A DNA stretch of 38,825 nt, from assembly GCA_018333535.1 (NCBI GenBank), contig JAGXTA010000112.1, positions 1-38,825 of the forward strand. Direction: 5' to 3'. This document shows positions 293-24,350 of this stretch, piece after piece. The notes beneath the pieces are model-generated. The model did not search any database and was not told the DNA's origin. It saw only the letters and a list, made by a program, of their open reading frames with translations. The DNA comes from Deltaproteobacteria bacterium. GTDB taxonomy: Bacteria > Desulfobacterota > BSN033 > UBA1163. How positions within the stretch are numbered: the first letter of the stretch is position 1; each line of letters opens with the position of its first letter. Both the position numbers and the translations under genes were made by a program.

Positions 293-718
293 ATGGGAAA
301 AACTTTGATAAACATTTTACTATTCATTATCTTAACCTCTGTCTCCGCTTTGGCCAATGGTGAGCATCTCAAAACTCTGAAACAGGAGACCGATCCAAAG
401 GCGTTTAAGATCTTAAAAGAGAAATCAATTGACCCAAAAACAGGACTGCTTGAGACACTCGATCCGCACCATTTCAAAGGAAAGGCAAGGCAGGCCTATC
501 AGATTGCCAAAGATATACCTGAGGTGCTGGCCCAGGTGCCCTGTTTCTGTGATTGTGATGTCTTTGGCCATGAGAATCTTCTGGACTGCTTCATTGATCA
601 GCACGGTGCAGGGTGAGGAATCTGCCAGGAGGAGGCCCTCCTGACCAAAAAACTCTATGATAAGAAGACTCCCATCGATAAGATCCGGGAGGAGATCATA
701 ATAAAATTCAAGAAGTAA
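293..718 (+). CDS. Exported PCYCGC-type protein, probable selenoprotein (Sec at codon 108)
   Basis: The frame from ATG 293 to TAA 716-718 gives 141 residues if TGA 614-616 is read through. Residues 1-22 form a signal peptide (hydrophobic LINILLFIILTSVSALA). The motif PCFCDCD at 83-89, then GHENLLDCF and HGAG, match the PCYCGC protein family. In that family a Cys-x-x-Cys pair follows the HGA/HAS segment, and then an 'EAL...IR..I' tail. Here the first of those cysteines is replaced by TGA (UGIC), and the tail (ICQEEALL...KIREEI) remains in frame and conserved. A perfect hairpin lies just downstream of the TGA. The role is unknown; an exported thiol/selenol metal-binding or redox function is likely from the cysteines. 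A GTG at 275 is an alternative start, but it adds only low-complexity GVGV residues. The alternative reading is a nonsense mutation (TGC to TGA). Confidence 0.72.
626..643 (+). promoter_or_regulatory. bSECIS-like hairpin downstream of the in-frame TGA
   Basis: CAGGAGG at 626-632 pairs perfectly with CCTCCTG at 637-643 around the tetraloop AGGC. The loop begins 17 nt after the TGA at 614-616 and has G as its second base. Bacterial SECIS elements are known as short stem-loops whose apical loop lies about 16-37 nt after UGA and has a G in the first two loop positions. This hairpin meets each of those points. Its function as a SelB-binding element is inferred. Confidence 0.6.
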
Positions 719-937: not shown

Positions 938-2008
938 ATGATCTCGAAAAAAATATCAATTATTGTCCTTAGCCTACTCATCAGCCTCTGGAGCACCGTT
1001 GCCTTCTCCATCACTGAAGATGAAAAGAATAATATCGCTGTCTATGAAAAAGCGGCGGATGGGGTCGTCAATGTCACCAGCATTGCGGTGCAGATGGACT
1101 TCTTCTTCAATGCCTTTCCGACCCAGGGTTCAGGCTCCGGTTCCATCATCGATGTAAAAGGTCATATCCTGACCAATCACCATGTGGTAGCCAATGCTCA
1201 GAAATTAGAAGTGACTCTGGCTGATGGGTCGAAGTGGCCTGCCAAATTGATTGGATCCGATCCGGATAATGACCTGGCCGTGATCAAGATAGAGGTCCCA
1301 AAGGAAAATTTGAAGGTTATCCCAATGGGAGATTCAAAGCAATTGAGGATTGGCCAGAAAGTCCTTGCCATTGGGAACCCGTTTGGTTTTCAAAGGACCT
1401 TGACCACAGGAGTGATCAGCTCTCTGGGCCGGACTATCCGCTCCGAGGTAGGAACATTGATGGAAGATATCATCCAGACCGATGCTGCAATTAATCCGGG
1501 CAATTCCGGCGGACCTCTCCTCAACTCCGATGGTGAAATCATCGGGATCAACAGCGCCATCATCAGTCCCTCCGGCGGAAGCGTGGGCATTGGATTTGCT
1601 ATCCCGGTCAACACCGCAAAAAAAGTGATTCCGGAACTGATTTCGAAAGGGTATGTTACCTACCCCTGGATAGGGGCCACCATCCAGCCATTGCTGCCGG
1701 AAATTGCGAAGTTTATGAAAGTGAGCGTTGAACGGGGAGCCATGATCGCAGAGGTGGCCAAGGGAGGTCCAGCTGAAAGGGCGGGTTTAAAAGGAGGCAG
1801 TCAGAGAGTTCAGGTCGGCAATATGATTGTGGTTGTGGGCGGAGATATTGTTGTGAAAGCGGATCAACATGATGTGAAGACACACGATGATTTGATACGA
1901 TATATTCGTGAAAAGAAACCAAATGATGTCATCACACTTAAAGTTCTTCGAAAAGGGAAATTTGAAGACGTGAAGGTCACCCTCGGCGAGAGACCGAGAA
2001 GGAGGTAG
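938..2008 (+). CDS. HtrA/Deg-family serine protease with one PDZ domain
   Basis: A 356-residue periplasmic protease/chaperone that degrades misfolded envelope proteins. Residues 1-23 are a signal peptide. The trypsin-like domain covers about 35-235 and has a full triad: His82 (TNHHVV), Asp112 ([11 protein letters not shown]) and Ser190 (NPGNSGGPL). One PDZ domain covers about 245-350 ([11 protein letters not shown], then AERAGLKGG), so the layout is DegS/HhoB-like rather than the two-PDZ DegP type. ATG 938 follows GGGGA. The next gene starts 4 bp after the stop, so the two are probably co-transcribed. A MITE-like element lies immediately upstream. Confidence 0.92.
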
Positions 2009-2012
2009 TCAG

Positions 2013-2279
2013 ATGGAGAAATTACTTGTTCAATGGGGATGGCGAGATTATGGCATGGGACCGGGCATGATGGAAGGATGGTGGGGAATGGGATGGATCT
2101 TTATGATCGTCTTCTGGGGTCTTGTCGTTTTAGGTATCATCTTTCTCATCCGATGGCTTGTGGGGATGTCAAAAACAGCAAAACCTGAAGAGTCCGCCCT
2201 CGACGTGTTGAAGAAACGATACGCTCGGGGAGAGATCGATAAAGAAGAATTTGAGCAGAAGAAAAAGGATCTTGTGTAA
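2013..2279 (+). CDS. Small membrane protein with C-terminal SHOCT domain
   Basis: An 88-residue protein. A Gly/Met/Trp-rich N-terminus ([15 protein letters not shown]) leads into one membrane helix at about 30-50 ([18 protein letters not shown]). The C-terminal 30 residues ([20 protein letters not shown]) are a typical SHOCT domain. SHOCT domains are small helical modules, often found at the ends of membrane proteins, and their role is not well defined. AAGGAGGTAG precedes the ATG and overlaps the end of the protease gene, indicating coupled translation. Confidence 0.85.
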
Positions 2280-2291
2280 TTTTGCCCTCCG

Positions 2292-3308
2292 ATGAAAGAG
2301 CAATTCCATATTCAATGGCATATCACCAACCTTTGCAATCTTCGGTGCCAGCACTGCTATCAGGAAGATTTCTCGAGGGAGAAGGATCTTGATTGGACAG
2401 GGCTGAAAAGGGTCTCCGATAACCTCCTCACCACAATAAAAGAATGGGATCAAACAGCCTGCATTCATCTCACCGGTGGAGAACCCCTTCTCAAACCCGA
2501 ATTATTCCCCCTCCTACGATACCTTGATCAAAACCCTCTAATAGATGAGTTGGGTATCATCACGAATGGTCTTCTCTTTGATCAAGAGGTGGTGGAGAAA
2601 CTCTCTGTCTTTCCAAAGCTGAAAAAGATCAAGATCTCTCTGGATGGAGCAGATGCAGAGACGAATGACTCAATCCGCCAGGAGGGGGCTTTTAAGAAGG
2701 TTGTACAAAATATTCCTTTGATCAGGAAAGAGAGTTCCTTTGAAATCATTCTGATGTTTACTGTGATGAGAAGAAATTTTAGAAACCTTCCCTCTTTCTT
2801 TAACCTGTCTCAAGATTTAGACGTCCACGGATTCATCATCGAACGATTTATCCCCTGGGGCAGGGGAAGGGAGAGGATGGATGAGGTTCTGAATAAAGAA
2901 GAATGGAGAGAAATGGTAAAAATGCTGTTGGATTTTTTCTCAATTGAAGAGGAGAATCCTTTTCTTCCCTATCAGGCTTTTCAGGTGAGTTTCAATGAGG
3001 GGGAACCAGAACTTTTCGGTGCTCCCTGTGTTATTGGTGTAGATGGCCTTTGCATTATGCCGAATGGAGACGTTTTTCCCTGCCGGAGATTTCCCATCCC
3101 GATTGGAAATCTTTTGGGAACTCCCTTGACGCAGATATGGGACGAATCAGAAACATTGGAGAAGTTGAGAAAGAAAGAAAACCTGAAAGGAAAATGCGGA
3201 AGGTGTCCGATAGCAGATTGCCGGGGTTGCCGTAGCTTAGCCCTTGCCTTAACGGGCGACCCCCTCGCCGAGGATCCCTGCTGCTGGGTATCCAAAAGAG
3301 ATTTCTGA
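2292..3308 (+). CDS. Radical SAM/SPASM-domain protein
   Basis: A 338-residue cytoplasmic iron-sulfur enzyme. CNLRCQHC gives the radical SAM cluster cysteines Cys15, Cys19 and Cys22. TGGEPLL (about 60-66) is the SAM-binding GGE motif. The C-terminal third has the SPASM auxiliary-cluster cysteines (GAPCVIGVDGLC, VFPCRRF, then CGRCPIADCRGC). Relatives modify peptides or tetrapyrroles. There is no precursor peptide or cofactor operon nearby, so the substrate cannot be named. The SHOCT gene ends 12 bp upstream; the Shine-Dalgarno is weak. The last residues (Arg-Asp-Phe) and the stop codon are supplied by the end of a repeat element starting at 3298, so the native C-terminus was probably altered. 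Confidence 0.85.
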   Translation: MKEQFHIQWHITNLCNLRCQHCYQEDFSREKDLDWTGLKRVSDNLLTTIKEWDQTACIHLTGGEPLLKPELFPLLRYLDQNPLIDELGIITNGLLFDQEVVEKLSVFPKLKKIKISLDGADAETNDSIRQEGAFKKVVQNIPLIRKESSFEIILMFTVMRRNFRNLPSFFNLSQDLDVHGFIIERFIPWGRGRERMDEVLNKEEWREMVKMLLDFFSIEEENPFLPYQAFQVSFNEGEPELFGAPCVIGVDGLCIMPNGDVFPCRRFPIPIGNLLGTPLTQIWDESETLEKLRKKENLKGKCGRCPIADCRGCRSLALALTGDPLAEDPCCWVSKRDF

Positions 3309-13182: not shown

Positions 13183-16100
13183 TCACTGGTTCTGTGTTGC
13201 GGGCGTCCCAATCACCTGGAAGACACCAGCAGCCACGGGCGACTGTTCCATGTCGACCTTGGATTTCTCATTTAGTTCCCGAAGCCGCTGCTCCTTGTTC
13301 TCCTTTGCAGTTCGGAGTAAGCCCTCTGCTGGGCGAATCATTCTATCATCGCCCCTTTTTTGTCGTAAGGTCTCCAGGCGCTGCTCGTGTTCAGTGATGC
13401 GTCGGTCGAAGATGGCCCGGACACGCTGAGTCTTAATTTGGTAGATAGTATCGTTCTCTCCCTGGAACTCCTCCACTGCTAACGAAAACTGCTCTGCCAA
13501 GCTTTCCTCCAATGCATCATGGGCATGGGACAGAGCCTCTCGGTCGCAATCCACATAGTCCCAGTCGCCTCCTTTGCGAAGCAGGTGCTGAATGAAGGCC
13601 TCAGATTCTTCCGGTGGATAGTTCGCACAGTCCGCAAGCGACCGCACTCCATAAGCAAGCCTTTCCTTCGCGTAAAGACCCTTCAGCTTCCAACGCTCGA
13701 TCCTGTAGCAGTAATCACCAGGCTTCAAATCGGGATGGCTGATCCGTACTGCTGACAGGTTAAAAAAACTGTGCGCGCGGTCGTGGTTAACCTTTGTGAT
13801 CCAGCGGATTAACGGAGAGAGATGGTTGATGAAATAGATGCCGGATCGCTGGTTGAGTGGGAGACGTTGCAGCACCTCCCGGCGGAAGGTAATGCTGAAC
13901 TCGCGTTGCCGGAGCGGACGCGCACTCAGAGATCGGTCCCCGCCGATGAAATCCCCCAGCGATGAGCGGGCTTCTTGGATCAGCCGGATTCGGAGGCAGC
14001 CGTCAAAGGGTGTGTTGTGATTGACTTCACAGCCCTGAAATTCTCGCTCAAAGAAATCGGTGAGATAGTCCTCCAGTTCGTCTGGCTGGAGATATCGGCC
14101 TTTCTCCCGGTCCTCCTCGATCTTGTGTTGAACGTAATCAGAAAAGGCGATGAGCACGTCTTCTGATTCTTCGAGCGCCTGGATCTGCAGAAGCCGAGAG
14201 TGAATCACGCGCTCGGTTTGCTCCATTAGGTGCAGTTCCTCCCCTGCCGTCAATTCTTTGCTCAGGAGTTCCACGGTCAGCTGTTGCACCTCTCGGCCAA
14301 TCACGGCTTCGAGGTCTCCGAGACTGTTGGCGAAGCGTTCAAGCTTGGAATGCAGACGATCGTAGAGCCGCTCCTCAATAGTATCCTTGACCTTGAAGTT
14401 GACCACGGAGATACGTTTTGCCTGCTGTCCAACGCGGTCGATGCGTCCGATCCGCTGCTCGACTCGCATGGGGTTCCAGGGTAGGTCGTAATTGGCAAGC
14501 ACCCGGCAGAACTGGAGGTCGATCCCCTCGCTGCCAACCTCGGACGAAAGCAATACCCTGGGGCCACGCGGATCCTTGAACCGGTCGATCTCCTCCCAAC
14601 GTTGTTCGTTCGGCACGCCGCCGTGGATTACGGTTACGCTAACTCCATCTGACATCAAGCGGCGTCTCAGATAACTAAGCGTGGGGCGGTAGTAAGCGAA
14701 GACAATGACCTTCTCGTCAGGCACCACTTCAACGAGCATCCGGCGCAGTTGGTAATACTTGCTGTCATTCTTTTCGAAGTCATAGGCAAGGAGCCGACTA
14801 ATCTCTGACACGCCAAGCTCCTCTTTTTGGTCCTCGTTGAAGAGATCGTCAAAAACTTCTTCGCCCATAGCCTCATCAAACAGGTCCTGGACTTCCCCAA
14901 ACCGCCCATCCCGGATCTCTTGCGCCAGCACCGGCAGGCAGCTCGCGGCACGCAATTGCAGGCCCAGTACCTGAAAAACGTGAAAGGGTCGACTGTCCTG
15001 GCGGCATCTCCGTCGGACGATTCCAAGGATCGCTTTATAGAGGGACATCTCCTCGGAGGAGTACTCAACACTCAGGACCACTGGGTCCCGCATGGGTCGG
15101 TTTTCCTTCACCTGGACTCGCCGGGTTCGGTTCACGTAGCTCCCCAAAAGATTTAGCTTCTCAGCAAGGTCCTGGCATCTTGAAAGCTGCGCTTTGTCAT
15201 CTGGATTGAGTTGTTCAAGTGTTTCAAGAAACTGCCTGAACAGGGGTGACTGGCTGATGAACCGGCTTGAACCCATCCCGACAACGGCCTGCTTTAGGAG
15301 GACCATGTCTATAGGGGTGCGTGCCAAAGCATTTCCTGCCTGTATAGCTGGACGGTTTGCTTGGAGCAATTCCTCGAACATCCCATGTGACTCGAAAAAG
15401 CTCTCATCCACAAGGCGGAGCAGACTGTGGAGATCGGTATTACTATTGTTCACCGGCGTAGCAGAGACACAGAGAACCGAGCTGGCAGCAATCGCCAGGC
15501 TCGCACCGAGATGGAATGTTGCTGTCCCCGGAGTTCTCATATAGTGAGCTTCATCGAAAATTACCATGTCGAAAGGATCATAGCCCAATGACCAGTGACG
15601 CAGCTCGCGCAGGAACGCCGTTTTTTCAGAACCACCAAGTTCCTCCTCTGGATGCTCTTTTAGTAGACGCACCTCGTTTTTTGGAGGACGAAGTCCTGTA
15701 TAAGTGGCTATTAAGATAAAAGGATGTCCAGGCCCATTGGACTTAAGATCGGAGACTTCGCGCTGCAACTCCACGAAATCGACGATTCGCGCGTCAAACA
15801 TAAACTTAGTACGAAGTTCCTCCCGCCACTTCTCGGCTAGGATCTTCGGGCACACCACCAGCAGCCTTTGCGCCTGACGGCGAGCCTGCAGTTCCATCCA
15901 GATCAGGGCAGCCTCTATTGTTTTGCCAAGACCTACCTCGTCCGCGATAATCAGCCGCTCGGTAGGTGAGTTGATGAACTTTAGGACAGGTTTGAATTGA
16001 TAGGGATAAAAATCGATCTGTGCCGCTTCCATCGAGTAGATTACCTCATGGAGCGTACCTTTGAGCTTTTCATATGTGATAAGACGCTGAAGATCCCGGA

Positions 16101-16341
16101 CCTTACCAAAATGCCCTCTTCGCAACTGCTCGACCATTGAGCCTGGAGGCGGTATCGCATCCAGAGAAGACAGCGGACGATAACTGGTTCCGCCACCGGG
16201 ATAAAATAGCTGCACCATAATGTGCGGACCTGCTTTACGCCATTTGCCAGTATATTGGCCTGGCTGGCCGGGATTGTGCCGGTCGATCACCCAATCGCCA
16301 GGTGAAAAAGGAATGTCGCACTTGGTAGGATCAGGACACAT
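13183..16341 (-). CDS. SNF2/RapA-like DNA helicase, defence-island type
   Basis: A 1052-residue superfamily 2 ATPase. Motif I is ADEVGLGKT (Lys140), motif II is DEAH (263-266) and motif III is SATP. The C-terminal helicase half has HGGVPNEQRW, SSEVGSEGIDLQ and QRIGRIDRVGQ (about 555-650). The last 350 residues are charged and coiled-coil-like with no recognised domain. It should translocate on DNA; a nuclease domain is not seen. It follows hsdR by 103 bp and precedes the ATPase by 8 bp. Such helicases occur in DISARM, Dpd and other defence clusters, but the usual partners of those systems are missing. Confidence 0.85.
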   Translation of the reverse strand: MCPDPTKCDIPFSPGDWVIDRHNPGQPGQYTGKWRKAGPHIMVQLFYPGGGTSYRPLSSLDAIPPPGSMVEQLRRGHFGKVRDLQRLITYEKLKGTLHEVIYSMEAAQIDFYPYQFKPVLKFINSPTERLIIADEVGLGKTIEAALIWMELQARRQAQRLLVVCPKILAEKWREELRTKFMFDARIVDFVELQREVSDLKSNGPGHPFILIATYTGLRPPKNEVRLLKEHPEEELGGSEKTAFLRELRHWSLGYDPFDMVIFDEAHYMRTPGTATFHLGASLAIAASSVLCVSATPVNNSNTDLHSLLRLVDESFFESHGMFEELLQANRPAIQAGNALARTPIDMVLLKQAVVGMGSSRFISQSPLFRQFLETLEQLNPDDKAQLSRCQDLAEKLNLLGSYVNRTRRVQVKENRPMRDPVVLSVEYSSEEMSLYKAILGIVRRRCRQDSRPFHVFQVLGLQLRAASCLPVLAQEIRDGRFGEVQDLFDEAMGEEVFDDLFNEDQKEELGVSEISRLLAYDFEKNDSKYYQLRRMLVEVVPDEKVIVFAYYRPTLSYLRRRLMSDGVSVTVIHGGVPNEQRWEEIDRFKDPRGPRVLLSSEVGSEGIDLQFCRVLANYDLPWNPMRVEQRIGRIDRVGQQAKRISVVNFKVKDTIEERLYDRLHSKLERFANSLGDLEAVIGREVQQLTVELLSKELTAGEELHLMEQTERVIHSRLLQIQALEESEDVLIAFSDYVQHKIEEDREKGRYLQPDELEDYLTDFFEREFQGCEVNHNTPFDGCLRIRLIQEARSSLGDFIGGDRSLSARPLRQREFSITFRREVLQRLPLNQRSGIYFINHLSPLIRWITKVNHDRAHSFFNLSAVRISHPDLKPGDYCYRIERWKLKGLYAKERLAYGVRSLADCANYPPEESEAFIQHLLRKGGDWDYVDCDREALSHAHDALEESLAEQFSLAVEEFQGENDTIYQIKTQRVRAIFDRRITEHEQRLETLRQKRGDDRMIRPAEGLLRTAKENKEQRLRELNEKSKVDMEQSPVAAGVFQVIGTPATQNQ

Positions 16342-16444
16342 AATCTCAGCTCAGAATGGATTCGTGATTACTTAGGATTCAGTCCTTTTCTCTAAAAGAA
16401 GCCATGTGTCTCCGAGGACAGATTTGGCTCTACAACTGCCAGCT

Positions 16445-19400
16445 TCATGCATTCACCCATTCTTGTGAAAGCACTTCCGCTTGCTCCAGGACAGTCTGTG
16501 TTGCTTTTTCCTGTTTGTCAGGCGGATAACCGTACTTCCTTAAGATTCGTTTCACAATTACGCGGAGCTGAGCGCGCACATTTTCTCGCATGGTCCAATC
16601 AATCGTCACATTCTTCCGCACCATTGCAACCAGCTCCCGTGCAATAGTACGAAGGATGTTGTCCCTCAGCACTTTCACCGCACTGTCATTTGTCTCCAGT
16701 GCATCATAGAAGGCAAGCTCCTCCTCGGACAAATTTAGCGCTTCGCTCCGTGTGTCCGCCTGCCGCATCTCTTTTGCAAGTGCAATTAATTCCTCTATCA
16801 CCTGTGCGGCCTCGATCGCCCGGTTTTGGTAACGCCGGATCGCCTGTTCCAGCATCTCGGCGAATGATCGAGCCTGGACTACGTTCTTACGCCCGCGAGC
16901 CCTAATCTCTCCAGCAAGGAGCTTTCTGAGAAGCTCTACGGCCAAGTTCCGCTGGGGCATTGAGCGGACCTCAGCAAGGAACTCATCGGAGAGAATCGAA
17001 ATGTCAGGTCTTTTGAGGCCTGCGGCCGAGAAGATGTCAACAACCCCTTCAGGAGCGACAGCCCGGGATACGATCTGCCGGATCGCGTGATCGAGGTCCT
17101 CCTCAGGTTTCATTTCACTTGGTGCTCGTTTTGCCAGTACGGCACGAACAGCCTGGAAGAAGGCTACGTCGTCACGGATGTGTAGAGCTTCTTCATGTGG
17201 AACCGCTAAGGCGAACGCCTGGGATAATTCCTGCACCGCCCGTTGGAAGCGTTCCTTTCCTTCTACCTGTGCAAGGATGTGCTCCTGTGCCGGTGGAAGG
17301 ACTGACACGCGTTCCTCTGGAGAACCGGAAACCCACTTGGACCAGTTAAAGCCGTGGAACAGGCCGCAACAGATTTCATACTTCTCAAGCATGAGCGCAA
17401 CTGCTTCCTCCTGGTCGATTGCAGTCTTCCCGGTTCCTCCGCTCTCGGTGTAAGTGGCGAGAGCCTGTTTGAGTTCGTGTGCCAACCCGAGATAGTCCAC
17501 GACAAGCCCGCCAGGCTTATCGTGGAACACACGATTGACACGGGCGATTGCCTGCATCAGGCCGTGCCCACGCATTGGTTTGTCGACATACATCGTGTGC
17601 AGTGACGGGGCGTCAAAGCCCGTAAGCCACATGTCGCGCACGATCACCATCTTAAGCGGGTCTTTCGGATCACGAAACCGGTTGGCAAGCATCTCGCGGC
17701 GTTGCTTGTTGCGGGCGTGCTGGGCCACTCGCGGGCCTTCCGACGCATTCCCTGTCATGACAATCTTGATTGCTCCTTTGTCGTCGCCTACGTCGTACCA
17801 TGACGGTTGGAGCTTCACAATCTCATCATGTAAATCCATACAGATACGCCGGCTCATACAGACGACTAAGGCTTTTCCTTCCATTGCCTCAAGCCGCTCT
17901 TCGAAGTGCGAGACAATGTCCTGAGCAACAACCTTCAGCCGCTTCTCGGCCCCGACAATTTTCTCAAGCTGTGCCCACTTCGTCTTAAGTTTTTCCTTCC
18001 GCTCGATCTCCTCACCCTCGGTGACTTCCTCAAAATCCGGGTCAATTTTTGGCCTCTGGGACTCATCCAGCTCAAGCTTCGCCAGCCTGCCCTCGTAATA
18101 GATGGGAACCGTCGCTCCATCGTCTACCGCACGCTGGATATCGTAAATGCTGATATAGTCTCCAAACACTGCCCGGGTATTCTTATCCGTAAACTCAATT
18201 GGCGTGCCGGTGAATCCGATAAAGGAGGCTTTCGGCAGCGCATCCCGCATGTGCCGTGCATAGCCGTCAATGAAATCGTACTGACTGCGGTGGGCTTCGT
18301 CGGCGATCACGACAATGTTTCGCCTTTCGGAAAGCGCGGGGAGGTGATCGCCTTTTTCCTCGGGGAGAAACTTCTGAATCGTTGTGAAGATGACACCTCC
18401 AGCTTCAACACGCAGCTTCTCGCGCAAGTCGGTCCGGCTCTCCGCCTGTGCCGGCGGTTGGCGCAATAGTTCCTGGCATCGCGAGAAGGTCCCAAAGAGT
18501 TGATCGTCAAGGTCATTGCGATCTGTGAGAACAACGATGGTCGGGTTCGCCATCTCCGGCTGGCGGATGATGCGGCCAGCATAGAAAGCCATGGTCAGGC
18601 TTTTCCCCGATCCCTGCGTATGCCAGACGACGCCAATCCTTCGATCTCCGGGTTTGCCACCGTGTTCAAGCCTTGTTTCATAACCGCCCGGTGGTTCCGC
18701 AACCCGACGGGCCTCCTCGCGTAATCGCGCAGCGCGCAGAGTTTCCTCCGCCGCTATTTTTACAGCATGGAACTGATGGTAGCCGGCCAATTTCTTGACG
18801 AGCGCACCGCCAGAATCCTCGAATACAATGAAATCGCGAAGCAGATCAAGGAACCGCCGCTTCTCTAAAATCCCTTCCAACACGACCTGCAGCTCGGGCA
18901 AGTGGGGATCGGCCAGCGACTCACCTGAGATCGTCCTCCAGGGTTTGAACCACTCCCGGCCTGCCGTAAGCGTGCCTATGCGTGCTTCCATACCATCGGA
19001 GACGACAAGCATCTCGTTGAAGCTGAAGAGACCTGGCAACTCACTCATGTAAGTCTGAAGCTGTTGAAAGGCTGTCCAGATGGTGGCGTTCTCGTCGGCA
19101 GGGTTCTTGAGTTCGATGAGTGCAAGCGGAAGGCCGTTAATGAATAGCACCACGTCGGGCCGCCGGGTATGTTTGTTTTCGCTAACAGTGAATTGGTTGA
19201 CGGCAAGCCAGTGGTTGTTGTCAGGGTCCTCGAAATCGACAACGCGAGCTTGTGCGCCCGCTATGGTCCCATCAGGACGTTTGTATTCGACCGTCACCCC
19301 ATCAATCAGCAAACGATGGAAGGCCCGGTTGCGCGCCTCCAGTGTCGGCCCTTCAGGCCGGATGATCTTGCGGAATGCATCTTCGAGGGCCTCAGCCGGA

Positions 19401-19591
19401 AGCTGCGGATTGAGGCGTGCGAGCCCCTGACGCAGGCGGTCTCCCAGGAGAACCTGGGAGTAATTACTCCGCTCCGCCCAAAGCTCCCCCGGCGCGATGT
19501 CGGGTCCATGCTTGATCATGTAGCCGAGGCGCTCGAGCCAGGCAAGAGCGGCTTCTTCGATAACAGACTCAGAAAAAGGGTTGTCGCTCAT
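16445..19591 (-). CDS. hsdR: Type I restriction enzyme, R subunit
   Basis: A 1048-residue motor-nuclease that translocates DNA and cuts unmodified molecules. The N-terminal nuclease has Asp146 (RRPDVVLF) and Glu160-x-Lys162 (LIELKNP). The motor has GSGKS (Lys330) and [10 protein letters not shown] (431-440), and GTPIEF/RVNRVF segments further on. The helical C-terminal part (about 850-1048) resembles the domain that docks on HsdM. Its ATG overlaps the upstream HEPN-type gene's stop (ATGA), so translation is coupled. Confidence 0.95.
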
Positions 19592-20235
19592 TCTTGATCC
19601 TCCTCTTCGGTCGCGAGGTTAATTAACCGGCTACCCAAGTCCCGGTAAGCGTCATAATCCACAGCAGAGAGCACCTCACTGACATAATAACTCTGCTCGC
19701 CTACATCTACCATCCCATACTTACGGTCAATTGCTCTGTTATACGCTCCGTCAGGTGGAGGTGGAGACGGAGGCGAACTATCGGTAATGGCCTTCCCTAA
19801 AAGTAAATTGACATCAACGACATCGAAAAGAACCGAGAAGATCCAAATTGCTGCCTCTCGAATAATCTTCAGTACGTTCTTCTCAGGGGTGCCCTTTTGC
19901 CCTCCATGGTATTGCTCATTGCGATGATCGTGCGCCCAGATGATATGGCTTTTTTCAACAGCCCAGGTGAGCCCCCGCGATGCAAGTTCATAATCGAGGA
20001 AGTCCAATTTAGCGTGATAATTATTCAGCCATCTTTCGACATCTGCTCTGGGGTAGGTGCGACCGCTACGCTGAATCGGGTTGAGCGTGAGATACGTAGT
20101 GATGGCCACATCAATCGCGTTGTCAAAGCTTATCAATGCGATTCGCCGATCAAAGTCCTCCCCCTTATTTAGATGCCCCTCGGCATGTACGAGTAACTCA
20201 AAAGGGCCATTCGCCCAAGGCGGCAAAGAATTCAT
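19588..20235 (-). CDS. HEPN-type protein inside the type I R-M operon, candidate RNase
   Basis: A 215-residue, mostly helical cytoplasmic protein with the motif HRNEQYH (Arg105-Asn-x3-His110), fitting the R-(N/D/H)-x-x-x-H signature of HEPN ribonucleases. The flanking helices ([15 protein letters not shown] and [16 protein letters not shown]) fit a HEPN helical bundle. A Ser/Pro linker (about 153-163) leads to a C-terminal tail with tyrosines. ATGA overlaps on both sides join it to hsdS and hsdR. Host-guard RNases such as PrrC sit in R-M operons and cut tRNA when restriction is disabled; a similar role is inferred. It could instead be an accessory DNA-modification factor. Confidence 0.7.
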
Positions 20236-21617
20236 AAATTGGCCTCGGAGATAAAGCGCTCAGCATCCTTCACCCGCAGCTGACCGGAGATGAGTCTGGG
20301 CAATAGAGCGTCCCGCAGGGCAGCGAGGGTGTCGTTGTTGACCTTATTTTGGCACAACCGAAGAAGCAGCGCTGACACTATCTTATCAAATTCGTCCATA
20401 ACTACTCTTGGTGGAATGGGAATCTGGATTGAACGCAGATACGTCACAGGACGTGCGATTGAGGGCACACCGGATGATGAAGTGTTTGCAAGTAGTTTGT
20501 GCTGACCTTCGAGGGAGTTGAAATAAAGTGCAATGAAAGCTGGGCTGACCTGCGACAGGTCACAGCGCATAAAGAACTGGCGCTGTGAAATAACGTACCT
20601 TTCATAACGAGATGTTTTTGGTATAAAGGCGGCTTGGCCTATGTTTCCCGCATGTGTAAAGATAACATCCCCGCGTTGAACTACCGCGTTGGCTAGCCTC
20701 ATCGCGTGCTCTTGGGTAATGAAGTTGAAAGTGTTGTCTTCCATAACAAACCCATTCAGGTGTTGTCCACTGATAATTGGAACGCCCTCAGGGACGAAAG
20801 TTTCGACCTTGATGGACGACCCGAACGGGCCCATTGCAACCCGTTCCGCCACTTCTTCTATTCTCTTGACAGCCCACCCCGCCGGAATCTCTCCCAACTC
20901 TGAATCCTCTAATCTGTCAGGGAAAAGGTCGTAAAGGTGGGCGGGGAGGCCGGGTAGGGTTTGGCCTCTTCCCCAGCGGCTGTTCATCTTAGTCCGAACG
21001 GGGTCGAAATCCACAAACCACGACTTAAAAATCGCCCGTGCAATTGCTTCCAGGGTCTCATTCATCCGCCGGTTTAGCTCAATCTTGTCAACCAACGTGC
21101 CGAGGATGTGAGCAATAGCGCGTTGTTCGGGGAGGGGCGGCAGTGGAATCTCAATCGTACGCAGATACGTCACCGGCTGAGCGATTGATGGAACGCCGAC
21201 CTGAGACGTATTAGCAAGGAGCTTGTGCCTACCCTCAGGTGTATTGAAATAGTAAACGACAAACTCAGGTATTGCACGTTGACGGTTACAGCGCATATAG
21301 AACTGGCGCTGAGAAATGACATAACGTTCGTATTCCGAGCTTTCTGGAATGTACGAAACCTGTCCAATGTTACCAGCGTGCGTGAAAATAATGTCGCCTT
21401 TTTGCACATTAGCGTTCTTAAGGCGATTTGCGTGTTCTGGGCTCAGGAAGTTGAATCCGGATGTCTCATCAAGCCTGAAACCGTGAAGGTGTTGCCCACT
21501 AATGACAGGCACGCCCTGCGCTACAAATGTCTCGACTTTAATCGAAGAACCAAACGGCCCCATCGCGACCCTTTCGGCGACTTCATCGATTGTTGCGGTG
21601 TCCCACTCACCCGCCAT
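20232..21617 (-). CDS. hsdS: Type I restriction enzyme, specificity subunit with two near-identical TRDs
   Basis: A 461-residue DNA-recognition subunit. The two target-recognition domains (about 12-160 and 254-402) both begin VAERVAMGPFGSSIKVETFV and both end in the PSIA.PVTYLR, LPP/IPP pattern. They are roughly 70% identical by eye. The central conserved helix is about 163-215 (LPEQRAIAHILGTLVDKIE) and the second one about 403-450. Each TRD reads half of the split site, so the two halves should be the same or nearly so. AAGGAG lies 8 bp before the ATG; the gene lies 59 bp after the yhcG-like gene. Confidence 0.92.
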   Translation of the reverse strand: MAGEWDTATIDEVAERVAMGPFGSSIKVETFVAQGVPVISGQHLHGFRLDETSGFNFLSPEHANRLKNANVQKGDIIFTHAGNIGQVSYIPESSEYERYVISQRQFYMRCNRQRAIPEFVVYYFNTPEGRHKLLANTSQVGVPSIAQPVTYLRTIEIPLPPLPEQRAIAHILGTLVDKIELNRRMNETLEAIARAIFKSWFVDFDPVRTKMNSRWGRGQTLPGLPAHLYDLFPDRLEDSELGEIPAGWAVKRIEEVAERVAMGPFGSSIKVETFVPEGVPIISGQHLNGFVMEDNTFNFITQEHAMRLANAVVQRGDVIFTHAGNIGQAAFIPKTSRYERYVISQRQFFMRCDLSQVSPAFIALYFNSLEGQHKLLANTSSSGVPSIARPVTYLRSIQIPIPPRVVMDEFDKIVSALLLRLCQNKVNNDTLAALRDALLPRLISGQLRVKDAERFISEANL

Positions 21618-21676
21618 ACCTCAACTCCTTCGGTCTTGCCTCGATAGCATTTTTGATCTCGTCCGTTCCGCTGTGT

Positions 21677-22784
21677 TCACCCATTGCCGACCTCTTTGAC
21701 CTTTTCCTCGAGGAAACGCTGGATTTGCTCTTTCTTGGGGAGTTCGAGTTGGTACTTGGAGACAAACAGTTTGTTGTCCATCCCTGCAAGGGCGTACTCA
21801 ACAAGGACATGGTCTTTCTGGGTGCAGAGCAAAAGGCCAACAGGCGGGTTATCGCCATCGCTCATCATGTTTTTGCGGTACCACGTCACGTAGGTGTTAA
21901 GCTGGCCGAGGTATTCATGTTTGAATTCATCCACCTTTAATTCAACTAAAACATGACACTTAATAACCCGATGGAAGAAAACCAAATCGACAAAGCCATG
22001 GGCTTTACCGATGAGAATACGCTTCTGTCGGGCTTCGAAACAGAATCCGTGGCCCAGCTCCAGGAGAAAGTCTTGAATTTTATCGAGCAGAGCATCTTCG
22101 AGATCGGATTCACCCATGACTTCCTTTGATCTGAGCCCCAAAAATTCGAAAATATACGGATCTCGGATCATAAGCTTGTGCTCGGACCTTTCCGCGGTGG
22201 ATTTGATTAATTCAGCGAGCTTCTTCTTGTTGTGCGAAAGGCCAGACCGCTCGTAATAAAGAGTGGCGATTTGTCTTTTGAGCTCCCGCACCGACCAGTT
22301 GCCCCGGATGCATTCAATTTCGTAGAAGGTGCGTTTGAGGGGATCATCAAGATCAACAATAAGTTCGATGTGACTGTAAGAAAGACGTTGGAGAATGGTC
22401 TTCGGCGGAATCTCCAATTGTGGGGACACTGTCCCCATTTTTTGAAGGCTCACAGTTTCAATGGGTAACTGTTTCTTCAATTGTGCGGACAGTGCCCCCA
22501 CAATCCCCGGATATAGCCGATAAAGGCGCATGTAACGATAAAGCTGGCGGCGATTGCAGTTACTGATGTTCAATCGCAAAAGGCGTTTTGCCAGTTCGCT
22601 CAAAAGTTTGTCACCATATGTGGCACGATCGGCTCCCCGCAGTTCATATTCGGCGATATAGTAGCCGATCATCCAGTTACGAAGCGTCAGGCTGATGTTG
22701 ACCGCTTTTCCGGCTTGAGCCGCAAGATGTTCGTGCACATGCCGAATTGCGGCAACCAATTGGCTGAAATTGAGGGCTTTGTTT

Positions 22785-22795
<11 letters not shown>
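21677..22795 (-). CDS. YhcG/DUF1016-family PD-(D/E)XK nuclease
   Basis: A 372-residue protein. The N-terminal half (about 10-170) is the helical DUF1016 N-domain; the C-terminal half is a nuclease with GFVDLVFF (Asp270) and VLVELK (Glu285, Lys287), plus Glu255 as a further possible ligand. YhcG-type proteins are frequent neighbours of type I R-M systems and their role is unsettled. It overlaps the end of hsdM by 11 bp, so translation is coupled. Confidence 0.85.

Positions 22796-24350
<1,555 letters not shown>

Follow-up and report, generated by a model that had tools for sequence, protein, structure and literature searches.

OS_HP4 is a catalogued selenoprotein family built on the PF13798 domain. 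Table 1 of a 2026 review lists it as 'CYCXC family protein (hypothetical protein OS_HP4), PF13798, UxxC', with Zhang and Gladyshev 2007 as the source (PMC13188914), and an earlier review also gives OS_HP4 with a UxxC motif. The 2007 study, as cited in PMC13188914, first predicted OS_HP4 in the Delta 1 symbiont of Olavius algarvensis. Members of the family were seen in Thermodesulfobacteriota-type lineages and in Rokubacteria, NC10, Nitrospirota and Nitrospinota MAGs. PF13798 is also the domain of the PCYCGC-motif proteins of the Bacillales, among them AOT13_14730 of Parageobacillus, for which conserved cysteines and a lipobox, and no selenocysteine (Sec), have been described (PMC13068155). In the literature searched, papers naming PCYCGC give no function for it.

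The DNA analysed here (the window, 38,825 nucleotides in all) carries a gene of this family. Under the standard code a 113-codon open reading frame at 275-616 stops at a TGA. When this codon is translated as U, positions 293-718 yield 141 residues, with the single internal TGA as residue 108 in the motif U-G-I-C. Ordinary annotation would cut the protein off at residue 107, and would do the same to a second copy in the same genome. The features of the locus, including the nearest downstream gene discussed below, are as follows.

293-718, forward strand: CYCXC-family (PF13798 / NF041379) gene, predicted selenoprotein of 141 aa followed by TAA, with a single in-frame TGA read as selenocysteine
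293-355, forward strand: probable Sec-pathway signal peptide, MGKTLINILLFIILTSVSALA, with cleavage before NG, recognised by inspection of the sequence as a hydrophobic stretch ending ALA
542-556, forward strand: C-F-C-D-C motif (C84, C86, C88), the CYCGC site of the family, its three cysteines invariant in 50 homologues
614-616, forward strand: TGA codon of predicted Sec108, first position of the UGIC (CxxC) motif, aligned with Cys in the Cys-form homologues
626-643, forward strand: bSECIS-like hairpin, 7-bp stem CAGGAGG/CCTCCTG and loop AGGC, the loop starting at nucleotide 17 after the TGA
938-2008, forward strand: HtrA/DegP-type serine protease with a PDZ domain, a syntenic neighbour separate from the selenoprotein

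The protein scores 115.3 bits against the NCBIfam model NF041379, 'CYCXC family (seleno)protein' (OS_HP4_CYCXC), for which the curated cut-off is 90. Its Pfam match to PF13798 (PCYCGC; 41.1 bits, cut-off 25) covers residues 60-140 and thus runs across the TGA, bearing out the first-pass annotation, which had seen a PCYCGC gene at 293-718 interrupted by a TGA at 614-616. That annotation had also called the product a probable new selenoprotein and knew of no described Sec form of the family. The claim of newness fails, because such a form is already described (OS_HP4/CYCXC; NF041379; PMC13188914, Table 1). The copy from the Olavius-associated Delta 1 genome (L128) has a UGA at the column of the window's TGA, with the motif USTC against UGIC in the window; from the organism, the domain and the motif we infer that this copy is the OS_HP4 entry of 2007. 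The window protein is therefore a new member of a catalogued selenoprotein family, and its Sec form is not new.

Reading of the in-frame TGA

Comparative evidence indicates that the window gene almost certainly encodes a selenoprotein of the CYCXC/OS_HP4 family. The machinery for selenocysteine insertion is present in the genome, where all four of the genes named for checking were found: selA (534 bits), selB (368 bits, cut-off 242), selD (391 bits, cut-off 125), which carries an in-frame TGA of its own, and selC, the tRNA-Sec gene (76.5 bits against a gathering score of 47). Exactly one TGA is kept in all 11 close homologues (family f1), ten of them from other genomes of the same family and the eleventh being the second copy, which lies on contig C139 of the window's own genome; sister genomes thus retain the codon. 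More widely, in 80 homologous loci (L070-L149) fetched from named genomes, the Olavius-associated Delta 1 genome included, the column of residue 108 holds U (TGA) in 34, C in 46 and any other residue in none. In the alignment with Cys-form PF13798 homologues the TGA falls on the first Cys of the CxxC pair, which is the replacement that the first reading had proposed. Purifying selection acts on the 32 codons that follow the TGA (mean dN 0.100, mean dS 0.933), with a mean dN/dS of about 0.11 compared with 0.07 before it, and the frame holds no further stop. None of the outcomes named at first as refuting the Sec reading was therefore observed. A tree of the Sec and Cys forms requires a minimum of three changes between the two residues, on an alignment of only 94 columns with long branches.

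The second CYCXC selenoprotein gene of this genome (G000, contig C139, L150:394-810, reverse strand) is 88% identical to the window copy and lies downstream of a cysteine synthase gene. It could be a true paralogue, or it could derive from a relative, since contamination of this genome stands at 3.3%. Within the window itself, none of the 62 TGA-interrupted frames, judged by eye only, stood out as a second selenoprotein candidate.

The protein is probably exported, on the strength of its putative signal peptide, whose hydrophobic stretch ends in ALA before NG; export had been part of the original reading as well. The AlphaFold2 model places a helix over residues 2-21, in the putative signal peptide region, followed by a low-confidence linker at 20-30, while the mature part is a confident all-helical model with a mean pLDDT of 85.8. 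The columns that are invariant in 50 homologues include C84, C86, C88, H93, C99, H104, Sec/Cys108 and C111, eight positions of the mature domain that by their chemistry would be able to bind metal or take part in redox reactions.

The hairpin downstream of the TGA

The published bSECIS model calls for a loop of 3-9 nt, a stem of 4-16 bp, a G in the first two loop positions, a spacing of 16-37 nt and a folding energy of at most -7.5 kcal/mol (PMC13188914). The hairpin at 626-643 agrees with it, having a stem of 7 bp, a loop of 4 nt, a G at loop position 2 (and another at position 3), a spacing of 16 nt and an energy of -11.2 kcal/mol for the hairpin alone. The 7-bp stem and the loop at 17 nt had been reported correctly in the first-pass annotation, together with a position inside the bSECIS window; its stem start of 12 nt was wrong, as 9 nt separate the TGA from the stem. 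On comparative evidence, SelB carrying Sec-tRNA most probably reads the UGA at 614-616 as selenocysteine with the help of this hairpin.

Taken by itself the hairpin is only mildly unusual, and its weight lies in its conservation. Among the window's 1536 TGA trinucleotides, 1.3% are followed, under the same rules, by a Watson-Crick stem of 7 bp, and the hairpin is for this reason regarded as supporting and not decisive. Since the fold of 55 nt around it is not significant (z = -0.49), folding energy alone was not counted as evidence, and an Rfam scan of the window gave no match at gathering scores. Conservation is more informative. Codons +5 to +8 after the TGA, which read GAG GAG GCC CTC and make up the top of the hairpin, do not differ among the 12 close genes, whereas third positions before and after them vary and mean dS outside these frozen codons is near 1. 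Where the third base of codon +4 pairs with the first base of codon +9 in the stem, G-C has become A-U in two lineages, silently on both sides, and the pair is broken in the L078 lineage. Across the wider sample, a hairpin of -7.5 kcal/mol or lower under the bSECIS rules was found at 31 of 35 Sec loci and at none of the 46 Cys loci, these sequences being related and hence not independent counts; the four Sec loci that fall short of this energy under the simple model are L078, L079, L097 and L111. Two types of SECIS occupy the same position in the gene. In the window clade the loop lies at 17 nt, with stems AGGAGG/CCTCCT, while in the Rokubacteria and Olavius-type Sec loci (L086-L144) it lies at about 23 nt, with stems GAGGCGC/GCGTCTC. 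The difference between the two suggests that the SECIS was rebuilt during evolution.

These observations bear on two other readings of the TGA. Were it a real stop, the gene would be a truncated pseudogene or would encode a protein of 107 residues; standard translation does end there, and the hairpin is only mildly rare by chance. The frame beyond the TGA is nevertheless under purifying selection and fully conserved in 12 genes, the TGA is fixed across genera and phyla with Cys as the only alternative, and the SECIS hairpin is confined to Sec loci in a setting where the full Sec machinery is present. A genuine stop is thus very improbable, and was refuted on these comparative grounds. Even less probable, to the point of being negligible, is a genetic code (4 or 25) that assigns TGA to one of the ordinary amino acids. 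An open frame with TGA as Trp or Gly would look identical at a single codon, but TGA terminates 10 of the 27 long non-overlapping reading frames in the window, a normal stop usage that rules the reassignment out; moreover, homologues that lack the TGA have only Cys in its column, and both tRNA-Sec and selB are present. Selenocysteine accordingly remains the reading to which the machinery, the conservation of the TGA and the U/C-only column all point, as was originally proposed.

Gene neighbourhoods and the proposed relation to CcmH

The Sec and Cys forms of the family keep different company. Among the 80 loci, 30 of the 46 with Cys have a ResB-family gene no more than 5 kb away, and none of the 34 with Sec has one. 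A cytochrome c assembly gene is found near 27 loci, and 26 of these 27 are Cys forms. Among L070-L149 the Cys-form neighbourhoods feature ResB, CcsA and Rnf genes, while those of the window's Sec clade feature cysteine synthase, metal pumps and HtrA. Cysteine synthase stands beside the Sec clade in nine loci, the HtrA gene flanks it in six loci besides the window, and in several Sec-clade loci a copper-type (CopA-type) P-type ATPase or a CusA-type pump lies further upstream. In the window's own genome ResB is encoded elsewhere, on contig C105, and CcmH was not found. With such different neighbours beside the Sec and the Cys forms, function may have shifted between them.

The upstream neighbours of the window copy are hidden by a contig break. 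Just upstream of the selenoprotein gene is a frame at 2-91, TCFNLARMITILGVSGLIEKLMTLRAPVLG, which resembles the end of a transposase. Downstream, at 2013-3308 (forward strand), are genes for a small membrane protein rich in Met and Gly and for a radical SAM/SPASM protein, the best matches of the latter, all below the cut-off, including the haem-synthesis enzymes AhbD and NirJ2; L074 and L076 also have the radical SAM gene close to their selenoprotein gene. Further along, at 13183-24350 (reverse strand), the Type I restriction-modification genes HsdR and HsdM sit beside a DrmD-like SNF2 helicase, in what is probably a defence island.

Structure comparison gave a hint of CcmH. Foldseek gave no significant match for the AlphaFold2 model, its best being the N-terminal domain of CcmH (E 2.2). 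In the VIA comparison two CcmH structures were among the top three matches, that of P. aeruginosa with Z 4.5 and that of E. coli with Z 4.1, values which chance can give for helical domains. The sole match in a sequence search of solved structures, 4wai_A (E 0.48), was discarded. Following this hint, the CYCXC and CcmH profiles were compared directly, with 18 CcmH sequences aligned, and matched over 53 columns with a probability of 82% and an E-value of 1.1e-5. With trimmed profiles the real score was 30.2, whereas 200 column shuffles reached at most 19.4 and the reversed profile 15.1. The Pfam CcmH model, PF03918, matched none of 50 family members at E-values up to 10. Furthermore, a protein encoded in G078, a different genome of the same phylum (L182:7557-9062, contig C29), joins three domains: in order, a stretch resembling CcmH that scores slightly under the Pfam cut-off, a DUF1573 domain, which is listed as a selenoprotein family in its own right, and PCYCGC. 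It is encoded on the same strand as CcmE, CcmF, CcmH, ABC ATPase and CcmC-type genes, which form a System I cytochrome c maturation cluster. On these profile and domain comparisons the CYCXC family is proposed to be distantly CcmH-like, without being filed as CcmH.

Together, the relation to CcmH, the fusion protein and the neighbourhoods lead us to favour, by inference, an exported selenol-thiol redox protein of the CcmH type. Such a protein would act outside the cytoplasm, its UxxC pair cycling between a reduced state and a selenenylsulfide, with the CxCxC cluster serving as a partner pair or as a soft-metal (copper) site. In the Cys form it would likely handle thiols or haem while cytochrome c matures; for the window's Sec clade, the neighbours point instead to thiol and metal stress. 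As an explanation of the whole, an exported CYCXC/OS_HP4 selenoprotein with CcmH-like selenol-thiol redox activity appears reasonably likely, while the CcmH-like role of the window protein, taken alone, is put at an even chance.

The main rival makes Sec108 chiefly a ligand, with the CxCxC cluster and two His, in a site for copper or another soft metal, so that the protein would be a periplasmic metal chaperone or buffer and not a redox enzyme. It draws on the eight invariant Cys/His/Sec positions, on a structural resemblance, weak at Z 3.3, to the lead-binding regulator PbrR691, and on the copper-type P-type ATPase and CusA/CzcA RND pump among the Sec-clade neighbours. These copper genes, however, lie beyond cysteine synthase and are absent from some loci, the Cys forms adjoin ResB/CcsA and Rnf genes and not metal pumps, and the CcmH-like relation and the fusion favour thiol redox. 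A metal-binding role is on balance rather unlikely. For the preferred redox reading, a broader extension can be offered tentatively, as possible and somewhat short of probable: that CYCXC/PCYCGC is a divergent CcmH-type thiol oxidoreductase which serves cytochrome c maturation in its Cys form and has shifted to thiol/copper stress where the residue is Sec. If true, it would provide a first function for a domain of unknown function and for one orphan selenoprotein family.

Comparison with described families

This functional lead may be the only new part of the present analysis; the link to CcmH, the fusion and the split in neighbourhoods supply a functional hypothesis that can be tested, for a family listed so far with no known role. 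A number of parallels, and some differences, can be drawn with the systems already described. With CYCXC/OS_HP4 (NF041379) the window protein shares the PF13798 domain, the UxxC motif and Sec at the column seen in Olavius Delta 1. The window clade differs, however, in its N-terminal extension, which includes the signal peptide, in having CFCDC in place of CYCxC, and in the SECIS loop, which lies at 17 nt, while the Olavius and Rokubacteria types have it at about 23 nt. With the Bacillales PCYCGC-motif lipoproteins, such as AOT13_14730, it has in common the Pfam family, the CxCxC motif, further conserved cysteines and an extracytoplasmic location, yet those proteins carry a lipobox and none was seen in the window protein. 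The CcmH / NrfF thiol oxidoreductase domain (PF03918) shows a distant profile similarity, with a Cys-rich site followed by a helix and an 'xxG-x-x-x-x-x-I' helix in both, and a CcmH-like stretch is found fused to a PCYCGC domain. By contrast with CcmH, CYCXC proteins have no Pfam CcmH match, possess extra Cys and His ligands, and carry Sec or Cys in their C-terminal CxxC.
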